In this document: positions 22,848 to 28,117 of the stretch, one piece after another
Numbering within the stretch: the stretch's first letter is position 1
Layout: every line of letters begins with the position of its first letter
Assembly (NCBI GenBank): GCA_018822845.1
Contig: JAHJJD010000115.1
Span: 1 to 64,000 of the forward strand
Origin: Gammaproteobacteria bacterium
Lineage (GTDB): Bacteria > Pseudomonadota > Gammaproteobacteria > Thiotrichales > Thiotrichaceae
Reading direction: 5' to 3'
DNA length: 64,000 nt
Translations under genes and position numbers: made by a program
Notes under the pieces: model-generated
What the model was told of the DNA's origin: nothing
Database searches by the model: none
Seen by the model: only the letters and a program-made list of their open reading frames with translations

Positions 22848-23792
22848 GTGGCTCACTCAACACCGAAAGACCCTATGGCCAAACCAGTACTGATCGGCGG
22901 CCTTGTCCTGATCGGCGCGGCAGTTGCCGTACTGGTTTCCAACCTGTTCAGCACCATTGAGAAAAACTCAATCAAAGGCGCTGAAGATACTACTATGCAG
23001 GCTGCTGCGGCTGATGCAAACCTCGCGCCTATCGGCTCTGTCAACGCTGTTGATAAGTCCGTGGTCAAGGCAGCGCGTTCCGGCGAAGCAGTTTATAACG
23101 CTGTTTGTACATCCTGCCATGCTGCTGGTGTGCTGAACGCACCGAAACTGGATGACAAGGGTGCGTGGGAGTCACGTGCCAGCAAGGGCTTCGACAGTCT
23201 TCTGAACAACGCGATCAATGGGCTTAACTCCATGCCTGCCCGTGGTGGTGATCCATCCATTACTGATGAAGAGCTGACCAACGCCATCGTTTACATGACG
23301 GGTAAAGCTGGTCTGGACTTGTCCGCACAGGTTAAGACAGCGGCTCCGGTTGCTGCTCCAGCAGAACAGGCTGCTGCTCCGGCTGCTGACGTTGCTCCAG
23401 CTCCGGCAGAACAGGCTGCTGCTGCCGCTGCTCCAGCTCCGGCAGAACAGGCTGCCGCTCCGGCTGACGCTGCTCCAGCTCCGGCAGAACAGGCTGCTGC
23501 TCCTGCTGCTGCTCCAGCTCCGGCAGAACAGGCTGCTGCTCCTGCTGCCGCCATTGATGGTGAAAAAGTCTACAAAAGTATCTGCTTCTCCTGCCATGAC
23601 GTAGGCGTTGCCAACTCCCCCAAGCTGGGCGACAAGGAAGCCTGGGCACCGCGTATCGCGGCTGGTGCTGAAACCATGTATGGCACTGCCCTCAATGGTA
23701 AGGGCGCAATGCCAGCCAAAGGTGGCAACCCTGCCCTGTCTGACGCTGAAGTCAAGGCGGCGGTAGACTTCATGGTTGGCAAAGCCCAGTAA
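22848..23792 (+). CDS. Membrane-anchored diheme cytochrome c5-type protein
   Basis: 314 residues. The start is GTG 22848, chosen because AGGAGG lies five bases upstream; ATG at 22846 is out of frame. One N-terminal transmembrane helix (PVLIGGLVLIGAAVAVLVSNL) anchors two cytochrome c5 domains in the periplasm. Domain 1 has heme motif CTSCH and NSMPARGGDPSITDEEL; domain 2 has CFSCH and GAMPAKGGNPALSDAEV. In each the Met of the MPA motif is the expected sixth ligand. The domains are joined by an Ala/Pro/Glu/Gln linker (APAEQAAAP repeated). The protein probably shuttles electrons between the bc1 complex or periplasmic donors and an oxidase. A terminator follows, so it is monocistronic. Confidence 0.92.
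   Translation: MAHSTPKDPMAKPVLIGGLVLIGAAVAVLVSNLFSTIEKNSIKGAEDTTMQAAAADANLAPIGSVNAVDKSVVKAARSGEAVYNAVCTSCHAAGVLNAPKLDDKGAWESRASKGFDSLLNNAINGLNSMPARGGDPSITDEELTNAIVYMTGKAGLDLSAQVKTAAPVAAPAEQAAAPAADVAPAPAEQAAAAAAPAPAEQAAAPADAAPAPAEQAAAPAAAPAPAEQAAAPAAAIDGEKVYKSICFSCHDVGVANSPKLGDKEAWAPRIAAGAETMYGTALNGKGAMPAKGGNPALSDAEVKAAVDFMVGKAQ
23353..23548 (+). repeat. In-frame tandem repeat encoding the APAEQAAAP linker
   Basis: GCAGAACAGG recurs at 23361, 23406, 23442, 23484 and 23523, each within a longer GCTCCAGCTCCGGCAGAACA unit. Spacings are 45, 36, 42 and 39 bases, all multiples of three, so copy number could change without breaking the cytochrome frame. It encodes the flexible linker between the two heme domains. 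Confidence 0.85.
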
Positions 23793-25677: not shown

Positions 25678-26319
25678 TTACGGAATCCCCAGCATCTTGT
25701 GGGTCTGCACACTCAGCTTCCACTGCGGATGGCGCATGCAATAGGCAATTGCTGCCTGCGTATGCTGTGCCTGTTGCGGCCCATCCAGCGCTTGCAGGTA
25801 GAAATGCTGGAAATCCAGCCCGGCGAAACGTTCCGGCATTGCCAGCGTTTGCGGGTATACCAGCTTGAGTTCATTGCCATGGGTAAGCGCCAGCGGTGCA
25901 TCCGCCTTGGGGCTGACGCACAGCCAGTCGATGCCGGGCGGCGCTGGTTTGGTGCCGTTGGTTTCCACCGCAATCGCGAAGCCGTGCTGGTGCATGGCGT
26001 CAATCAGGGTTGTATCCAGTTGCAGCAGCGGCTCACCACCCGTGAATACCACGAAACGGTTTACATCCTGCGCCACACCTTCCTGCCATAGCTGCGTGAT
26101 CCTGTCTGCCAGCGCTGCGGCAGTGCGGAACTTGCCGCCATTTTCCCCGTTCACGCCAACGAAATCGGTATCGCAGAAATCACATATTGCCTTGTGCCGA
26201 TCCTGCTCACGCCCTGACCACAGGTTGCAACCGGCAAAGCGGCAGAACAGGGCCGCGCGGCCAGCGTGGAAGCCTTCGCCTTGCAGGGTGTAGAAGATTT
26301 CCTTTACCGAGTAGGTCAC
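25678..26319 (-). CDS. queE: 7-carboxy-7-deazaguanine synthase
   Basis: Radical SAM enzyme that converts 6-carboxy-tetrahydropterin to 7-carboxy-7-deazaguanine in the preQ0/queuosine pathway. The start is GTG 26319, giving [16 protein letters not shown]. It overlaps the queD stop as GTGA, a sign of translational coupling; the longer frame upstream lies within queD. The modified cluster motif CRFAGCNLWSG to CDFCD carries the three cluster cysteines with an insertion, as in gammaproteobacterial QueE. Further conserved parts are VFTGGEPLLQ, VETNGTKP and SPKADAP. At 213 residues it is a normal length. It is the last gene of the operon. Confidence 0.93.
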   Translation of the reverse strand: MTYSVKEIFYTLQGEGFHAGRAALFCRFAGCNLWSGREQDRHKAICDFCDTDFVGVNGENGGKFRTAAALADRITQLWQEGVAQDVNRFVVFTGGEPLLQLDTTLIDAMHQHGFAIAVETNGTKPAPPGIDWLCVSPKADAPLALTHGNELKLVYPQTLAMPERFAGLDFQHFYLQALDGPQQAQHTQAAIAYCMRHPQWKLSVQTHKMLGIP

Positions 26320-27404
26320 ACCGGCAACCCCGGCTCGTGTTCGCCCCACGACAGCACCACCCCGCAACCCGGTGTTTCATACAGGTCAATGCGGTCAAGT
26401 TGCGGCAAATTGCCACTGGCTTGTGTGCGTATCCAGCGGGCGATGCTGGCAGGGTCTGGTTCTTCCAGCCCCGGCAAATCATTCAGGTAATGGTGATCAA
26501 GCTGTTTGTAGATTGGGGTGAAAGCTTCTTTCACGTCGCCGTAATCCACTGTCCAGCCAAACACGGTATCCAGCGGTGCGGTCAGGTGCAGGCGCAGCAG
26601 GTAACTGTGCCCGTGCAGGCGGCGCACGCTCTCATCGGGGGCTGCACGTTCCAGCCGTAAGGCGCTTTCAAAACGCTGGTCTTTCCAGATGCGGTAATGT
26701 TGCCCGTCGTAATGGCAGCCAGCAGTGACGGTTTCGTACACGCTGACCCAGGAAAGCGCATCGAGTTCGGGCTTGAGACGATCCCACAGCCAGGCTGCCA
26801 GCATTTCACTGGTGGGGTTTTCCAGCCCCGTGATGTCATTCAGGCAATGGTGGTGGAGTTGATCGTGCAAGGGCTGCCAGACCGCTTCCAGCCGGTCGAA
26901 ATCCACCCCCATGTCCTGTGCTTGCAGGTTCTGGTTAGCGTGCAGGATGACCTCGAAACCATGCCCGTGCATCCGTCCGCACTGGTGGCCTTGCGCTACG
27001 TTTGGCAGGCGGTGGGCAGCCTCGAAGCGGAAGCGCCGCCAGATGTGGGCATTGTCGTGCAAATCCAGGTCTGCACCCTGATGGCGGGTGCTTTGCACGC
27101 CAACGGAAGCTATTCCGGGCAGGGCCATGCGGGCGCGTACCCAGCGGGCCAGATTTTCATCCGTTGGGATCGGCAGGAACTGGTTGAGGTCGTTGTAATC
27201 CAGCGGCGCGACGCAAGCGGCCAGTTGCTGGCGCAGGGTTTCAACCGACTCGGCTCCCTGTACCCGCACTTTGGCGAGGAAACTGTGGCCGTGCAAGCGG
27301 CGGGCGCGGTGGTCTTCCGGTAGGGGGGAATAATTATTCGCCCCTACGATTCGGCAGGCAGCCTCGAATGGGGTGGCGGCGAGGTAGAAAAGGGTTTCGT
27401 TCAT
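26316..27404 (-). CDS. queD: Triple 6-carboxytetrahydropterin synthase (QueD) domain protein
   Basis: 362 residues, about three times the usual 120 of QueD, which makes 6-carboxy-tetrahydropterin from dihydroneopterin triphosphate. Three QueD-like units are visible at about 1-108, 118-240 and 241-356, each with a HGH motif (38-40, 146-148, 264-266). Only the middle unit has the full set: zinc His131, HGH, and catalytic Cys142 in the C-x3-HGH spacing. Unit 1 has Cys17 at the first His position and Ala34 for the Cys; unit 3 has Leu249 and Val260. The flanking units are thus probably structural. Start ATG 27404 overlaps the queC stop as ATGA. The order queC-queD-queE supports the assignment. Confidence 0.88.
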
Positions 27405-28117
27405 GTGCTCATACCAAATTTGGCCAACAGCGGGTCGGTTGCGCCTGCTTCCGCGAAGCCCTTTGCCCGCAACAGGCAGGAGTCGCATTGGCCGCATGGT
27501 TTGCCCTGTTCATCTGGGTCATAGCAACTGCTGGTCAGGCTGTAATCAACGCCGAGTTCCAGCCCCTTGCGGATGATGTCGGCTTTGCTCATCTGGATCA
27601 GCGGGGCGTGGATTTGAAGCTTGTGGCCTTCCACTCCGGTTTTGGTGGCGAGGTTGGCCATGGTCTCGAACGCGGCGATGAATTCCGGGCGGCAGTCGGG
27701 GTAGCCGGAATAATCCAGTGCGTTGACGCCGAGGAAAATGTGTTGCGCTTCCAGCACTTCCGCCCAGCCGAGCGCGAACGAGAGGAAAATGGTGTTGCGG
27801 GCAGGCACGTAAGTCACCGGGATGCTGCTTTCCATCTCGCTGGTGTCGCGGCCTTTGGGTACGGCTATGTCGGCAGTCAGCGCTGAGCCGCCGAAAGCGC
27901 GCAGGTTGATGTCGGCGATGACGTGTTCCTGCACCTGTAGGGCGGCAGCAACCCGTTGGGCGGATTCCAGCTCAACACTGTGACGCTGACCGTAACGGAA
28001 AGAGAGCGCATACGGCTCAAACCCCTGTGCCTTGGCGATGGCGAGGACGGTGGTGGAATCCAGCCCGCCACTGAGCAGGACAACAGCTTTGCGGGGAATG
28101 GTGGAATCTTGTTGCAT
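27401..28117 (-). CDS. queC: 7-cyano-7-deazaguanine (preQ0) synthase
   Basis: 238 residues, standard length. This ATP-dependent enzyme turns 7-carboxy-7-deazaguanine into preQ0. The PP-loop [13 protein letters not shown] is near residue 16. [52 protein letters not shown] and the C-terminal zinc site [18 protein letters not shown] are all family hallmarks. It overlaps the upstream unknown gene by one base (TGATG) and the downstream queD by four bases, so the operon is tightly coupled. Confidence 0.95.

Follow-up and report, generated by a model that had tools for sequence, protein, structure and literature searches.

A three-unit QueD fusion in Thiothrix with active-site residues divided between its units

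In a Thiothrix genome, the QueD gene of queuosine biosynthesis encodes a single chain of three QueD units, referred to here as the triple, across which the residues of the QueD active site are divided. The zinc ligands, the cysteine and the glutamate are all found in unit 2, the Asp-His dyad is kept in every readable row of unit 3, and unit 1 is degenerate on both counts. This partition, conserved among 43 distinct triples, is consistent with one composite active site shared by units 2 and 3.

Gene and genomic context of the triple

The window, which is the whole stretch of DNA that was analysed (64,000 nucleotides), carries at 26316–27404 on the minus strand a single uninterrupted frame of 362 amino acids, lying between queC and queE. 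Three stretches of the encoded protein match the Pfam domain PF01242 (PTPS; E 3.9e-61; 204.8 bits, cut-off 22.4), which confirms the three QueD units in one chain proposed by a preliminary description made from the sequence alone. The protein also passes the cut-off of the NCBIfam QueD equivalog TIGR03367 (162.2 bits against 89.25). The unit boundaries listed below (118/119 and 237/238) are our choice, with the edge between units 1 and 2 set from the alignment.

27401–28117, minus strand: queC, 7-cyano-7-deazaguanine synthase (PF06508, E 9.3e-80; TIGR00364, 219.2 bits)
27051–27404, minus strand: unit 1 (residues 1–118), a degenerate T-fold with HGH at 38–40 and Asp69-Tyr70 replacing Asp-His; zinc His and Cys absent, Ser for Glu
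26694–27050, minus strand: unit 2 (residues 119–237), with zinc His131, Cys142, His146/His148 and Glu224; His184-His185 replacing the Asp-His dyad
26319–26693, minus strand: unit 3 (residues 238–362), with the Asp303-His304 dyad and HGH at 264–266 present; zinc His and Cys absent
25678–26319, minus strand: queE, 7-carboxy-7-deazaguanine synthase (TIGR04508, 362.1 bits on the longer frame 25678–26367; GTG start at 26319 likely)

Upstream of the triple, queC overlaps it by the four bases ATGA (27401–27404), and the stop of the triple overlaps the start of the downstream queE by GTGA (26316–26319), the GTG start of queE being our reading of the sequence. Owing to these short overlaps, queC, the triple queD and queE look translationally coupled. 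Encoded elsewhere in the window (22848–23792, plus strand) is a protein with two cytochrome-c-like CxxCH stretches, connected by a lengthy, repetitive linker (AAPAPAEQAAA, for example).

Present in unit 2 is the signature CxxxHGH (Cys142-GRM-HGH148), given as the QueD motif in an excerpt of PMC5041015, and E. coli QueD is the best match of this unit in both sequence and structure. The closest named full-length relatives of the triple come from Thiothrix species (85–89% identity). No second PTPS gene was found in the triple's own genome (4.0 Mb in 130 contigs, completeness 99.3%), in which QueF and TGT are both encoded. With the queuosine pathway thus present and a sole PTPS gene to serve it, the triple is expected to provide QueD, barring a bypass of this step. 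We have high confidence that the triple is the organism's working QueD (6-carboxytetrahydropterin synthase) of queuosine biosynthesis, and catalysis itself we infer.

Partition of active-site residues among the units

Residues were counted in 43 distinct triples using E. coli QueD numbering. Duplicates were counted once (L002, L003 and L116 repeat the sequence of the window's triple, L033 that of L030, and L036 that of L031), and a broken copy, L048, was left out. For comparison, all seven positions are invariant in 82 of 82 single QueDs and in E. coli QueD. These single QueDs have one unit, more than 60 bits to E. coli QueD, a frame below 330 amino acids, a domain above 100 residues and no X; by this selection they lean to E. 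coli-like QueD, and 56 of them came from a DNA-pattern search.

Unit 2 carries H16, C27, H31, H33 and E110, each in 43 of 43 triples. Its Asp70 and His71 are both intact in 8 of 43, the other pairs being HH (15), HN (4) and further ones, with His still at position 71 in 23 of 43; loss of Asp-His from unit 2 is not universal. In the window, His184 of unit 2 sits at the position of E. coli QueD Asp70, and Asp303-His304 is retained in unit 3.

The reverse holds for unit 3, in which Asp70 is present in all 42 readable rows (one X) and His71 in 43 of 43, with H16 in none of 43 (one gap), C27 in none (two gaps) and E110 in 33. Its HGH motif keeps the first His in 42 of 43 and the second in all 43. 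Unit 1 has HGH in 43 of 43, no H16 (six gaps), C27 in three (two gaps) and no E110 (six gaps); its Asp70 is present in 38 of 43 (Asn in five), position 71 is Tyr in 40 and His in one, and 38 of 43 have a His at the site of E. coli residue 25.

The residues that the preliminary description had named in unit 2 (His131, Cys142 and His146-Gly-His148) are correct, as is its observation that units 1 and 3 keep HGH (38–40 and 264–266) and lack the first zinc His and the Cys. Its conclusion that only unit 2 has an active site holds in part: unit 2 is the sole zinc and Cys side, the five zinc-side residues being there in each of the 43 triples, but just 8 of 43 have an intact Asp-His dyad in this unit. 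Unit 3, taken there as inactive, has the dyad in every readable row, and one composite site divided between units 2 and 3 describes the triples better.

The DNA-pattern search, which supplied 13 of the 43 triples, used QLDHHYLN from unit 3 and is biased towards Asp-His. Among the 30 triples found without the pattern, Asp-His is present in unit 3 in 30 of 30 and in unit 2 in 7 of 30, and every residue is present in 26 of 26 single QueDs obtained in other ways. With columns 70 and 71 left out, a tree of the 43 triples (17 of its 40 inner branches starred) implies at least nine changes in unit 2 at position 70 and at least 16 at position 71. In unit 3, no change is readable at either position. 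A dyad relaxed in unit 2 and strictly retained in unit 3 is the pattern that a division of labour between the units would predict.

A proposed composite active site

In PTPS, the Cys, the Glu and the zinc come from one subunit and Asp-His from another. According to its title, a 1995 paper by Burgisser et al. deals with the zinc site of this enzyme and with a catalytic triad shared between subunits. PMC7546909 describes PTPS as a dimer of trimers with sites buried between three adjacent monomers. Single-domain QueD has identical composite sites between its subunits: the Cys, the Glu that anchors the pterin and the zinc with its three His ligands belong to one subunit, and Asp-His to a neighbour. 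As the PTPS triad is inter-subunit and the corresponding residues of the triple are divided between units, the fused copies seem to share one composite site.

The course of events that we propose is an old in-frame triplication followed by specialisation of the units, in which unit 2 would have become the zinc/Cys/Glu side and unit 3 the Asp-His side. Unit 1, which would have lost both sides, looks like a scaffold. The three fused T-fold units would most likely make one trimeric ring per chain, with one working site at the contact of units 2 and 3, and two chains lying face to face would then contain two sites, not six.

No single unit of the 362-residue protein holds the whole Cys-Asp-His triad; units 2 and 3 have to be combined to obtain all three residues. 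If each unit joins with the next one in the chain, the site between units 2 and 3 is complete; if each joins with the previous one, unit 2 faces the Asp-Tyr of unit 1, which leaves the chain without a complete site. An active site composed of unit 2 and unit 3 residues is quite likely. That both halves lie within the same chain is somewhat less certain, although still rather probable. Catalysis, ring closure, the pairing of chains and completion of the site by unit 3 of the same chain and not of a second one are inferred.

Compatible with a site shared by units 2 and 3 is the idea that units 1 and 3 bind metal or pterin through other ligands, as regulatory or alternative sites. We consider it unlikely: the retention of HGH in both units (43 of 43 in unit 1; 42 and 43 of 43 for the two histidines of unit 3), together with His25 (38 of 43) and Tyr71 (40 of 43) of unit 1 and Glu110 (33 of 43) of unit 3, would fit such binding, but in none of the 43 triples does either unit show the first zinc ligand (six and one gapped rows), and HGH retention could reflect folding.

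Less probable still, with a chance that we put as small, is a whole site made by unit 2 pairing with unit 2 of other chains, which would leave units 1 and 3 as mere scaffold and the Asp-His of unit 3 as a relic. Every zinc-side residue is indeed in unit 2, accompanied by Asp-His in 8 of 43 triples, but such an arrangement predicts the opposite of the observed pattern, in which the dyad is relaxed in unit 2 (the at least nine and at least 16 changes counted above) and retained in unit 3 (30 of 30 rows found without the pattern).

Predicted structure

Structure prediction with AlphaFold2, using 16 triples, gave a best of five models with a pLDDT of 89.8 and a pTM of 0.87; the other four had pLDDT values of 88.8, 79.5, 70.4 and 68.2, so that just two of five exceed 80. 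The best model repeats the order strand-strand-helix-helix-strand-strand three times, which supports three predicted T-folds in the chain. Aligned to E. coli QueD, as the preliminary description had suggested, the model matches in unit 2 (Z 12.2, r.m.s.d. of 1.2 Å over 118 residues).

Units 1 and 2 jointly superpose on urate oxidase (Z 11.0, 208 residues, r.m.s.d. of 4.2 Å) and on GTP cyclohydrolase IB (Z 9.7, 197 residues, r.m.s.d. of 5.8 Å). Bimodular QueF gives a weaker match (Z 8.6, 186 residues, r.m.s.d. of 5.2 Å, model range 1–362). Owing to the superposition of units 1 and 2 on tandem T-folds, neighbouring units are predicted to lie side by side as in T-fold rings. We propose further that the ring closes and that Cys142 contacts Asp303-His304.

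Distribution of the triple

The triple is present in 12 of the 16 genomes of the genus, its own included, and the other four have one single PTPS gene instead; QueC was found in 16 of 16. That these four genomes have an orthologous single unit where the triple would stand was considered and rejected: next to the single PTPS gene, the four Thiothrix loci (L005, L008, L010 and L015) showed no QueC and no QueE, and its sequence is of another kind. In L005 and L015, a frame beside the single gene resembles a deoxyxylulose-phosphate synthase.

Wider samples were searched with a profile of unit 1. After a check of the frames, three units in one frame were present in at least 16 of 369 genomes sampled from the class (own included) and in at least 14 of 398 sampled from the phylum. 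Among the 14 are the own genome and two that were already in the class sample; eleven belong to other classes. These counts are minima, as some weaker matches in long frames, for example one in G087, were left unopened. By group code, the carriers in both samples belong to 14 families besides the triple's own. Carriers known by name are Thiothrix, Thiorhodococcus, Halochromatium, Thiocystis, Lamprocystis and Thiocapsa, alongside several metagenome-assembled genomes (MAGs). The survey of family members for triple fusions, also suggested at the outset, yielded 43 distinct triples from Thiothrix, Chromatiaceae and other Pseudomonadota. In two of them (L128 and L142), unit 1 is barely matched by a single-QueD profile (3.6 and 8.8 bits).

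Of the 26 triple genomes that lie outside the genus, 24 have the triple as their sole PTPS frame, and the other two, G383 and G390, carry a second such frame beside it. Adjoining the triple on the same strand is QueC and/or QueE in 37 of 44 loci, a count that treats L031 and L036 separately. In the available flanks of the other seven (L046, where the flank is short, L114, L117, L118, L121, L123 and L143), neither was found.

Several loci call for separate mention. In the Thiothrix lineage of L030 and L033, queE starts about 280–310 bases past the triple, without overlap. L044, on a contig labelled Synechococcaceae cyanobacterium, has a triple queD, queC and queE much like gammaproteobacterial ones and is probably a mis-binned MAG. 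An 80-amino-acid frame with a partial PTPS match (G056:C1:1213928-1214068) lies about 2.1 kb from a triple gene and is perhaps a remnant. A 646-amino-acid open frame in L120 was considered as a fusion of QueC with the triple and rejected, as its N-terminal part looks out of frame and the triple has its own ATG.

This genomic setting bears on whether the triple might be a PTPS relative with another reaction and not a QueD at all. Its architecture and the relaxed dyad of unit 2 do differ from QueD, but we regard such a change of function as very improbable: unit 2 carries the QueD signature, the equivalog cut-off is passed, the gene order is queC-triple-queE with no other PTPS gene in the own genome, and within one genus, all of whose genomes have QueC, the triple alternates with a single PTPS gene.

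A frameshift, a mis-assembly, a chance join or a decaying gene can practically be dismissed for the 362-residue frame, as intact frames occur in many separate assemblies (43 distinct sequences, and 12 of 16 genomes of the genus), which also settles the check for frameshift or assembly error raised by the preliminary description; nothing at this locus points to decay, and the one sign of it is an interrupted second copy in one Thiorhodococcus genome. That copy, L048, was observed on a 3,580-base contig of Thiorhodococcus minor, whose genome also has an intact copy, L038.

Origin of the triple

A tree of 129 units and 41 single QueDs places the copies of each unit in a group of their own, with SH-aLRT values of 99 (unit 1), 98 (unit 2) and 89 (unit 3), and the single QueDs form another (86). 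The singles were 40 drawn at random from the 82, together with E. coli QueD. The tree was built from 115 columns and 170 rows; of its 165 inner branches, 85 are open, and several rows of unit 1 sit on long branches. The grouping of the units favours one old triple fusion that would then have spread by descent or transfer.

A two-unit PTPS family

A two-unit PTPS protein (L192–L202, frames of 281–316 amino acids) is the sole PTPS frame in eleven of 25 genomes opened, which were hand-picked among the listed ones with two or three PTPS matches. In G333, G425, G717, G723 and G804, a two-unit frame is accompanied by a separate single gene. One two-unit protein was scanned and scored 45.4 bits, below the TIGR03367 cut-off of 89.25.

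Among the eleven proteins, unit a has Asp-His and no HGH in 11 of 11, and unit b has Cys and HGH in 11 of 11 by alignment and in 7 of 11 by the HMM register. An invariant Glu in an EG pair near the end of unit b and a zinc His were read by eye in the alignment; neither was recovered by HMM alignment to single QueD. Compared with the triple, the same residue classes are divided between units, with the order reversed and with CxxxxHGH rather than CxxxHGH. The pattern suggests that division of the site has occurred more than once.

A wider proposal, which we hold to be doubtful, is that fusion broke the symmetry of the ring. One of the three interfaces would be catalytic, with its halves on different units, and the other two, in which HGH is retained (as is the Glu in most copies of unit 3), would be conserved, non-catalytic pterin- or metal-sensing pockets regulating the first step towards preQ0. 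If true, the similar split of the two-unit family would make partition of the site after fusion a repeatable route in T-fold enzymes.

Comparison with known systems

Among the listed matches in open-licence papers, no title or start of an abstract names a triple QueD fusion. Tandem T-folds with an inter-domain site are already known; a triple that could fill a whole trimeric ring, its units each having a different catalytic role, is absent from these listed matches and would be new. With the halves of the site on different copies, the triple would serve as a natural test of the inter-subunit active site, in which conservation alone marks the residues acting across the interface. It would also illustrate how a symmetric homo-oligomer can give way to one asymmetric chain that has fewer active sites, and offer a single-chain T-fold ring for enzymology. 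For annotation, the presence of a PTPS domain conceals units that miss half of the site.

Urate oxidase also places tandem T-folds within a single chain and is not known to have a zinc site. It differs from the triple in having two units and an unrelated function, the likeness consisting in the superposition on units 1 and 2. Closer in pathway is bimodular QueF of the Vibrio cholerae type, which according to an excerpt of PMC5372742 has tandem T-folds with the QueF motif in one domain, the Cys and Glu in the other, and an inter-domain site. Like the triple, it places tandem T-folds of the same pathway in one chain, but it has two units, another reaction and another assembly.

The nearest known counterpart is E. 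coli QueD (PDB 4ntk, 4ntm and 4ntn; PTPS-I), which resembles unit 2 in fold, zinc ligands, CxxxHGH and Glu. Each chain of E. coli QueD is a single unit with the full set of residues, whereas the triple has three units with the residues divided among them; and where the homo-oligomeric single-domain QueD is built of identical units, the chain of the triple joins three unequal ones.
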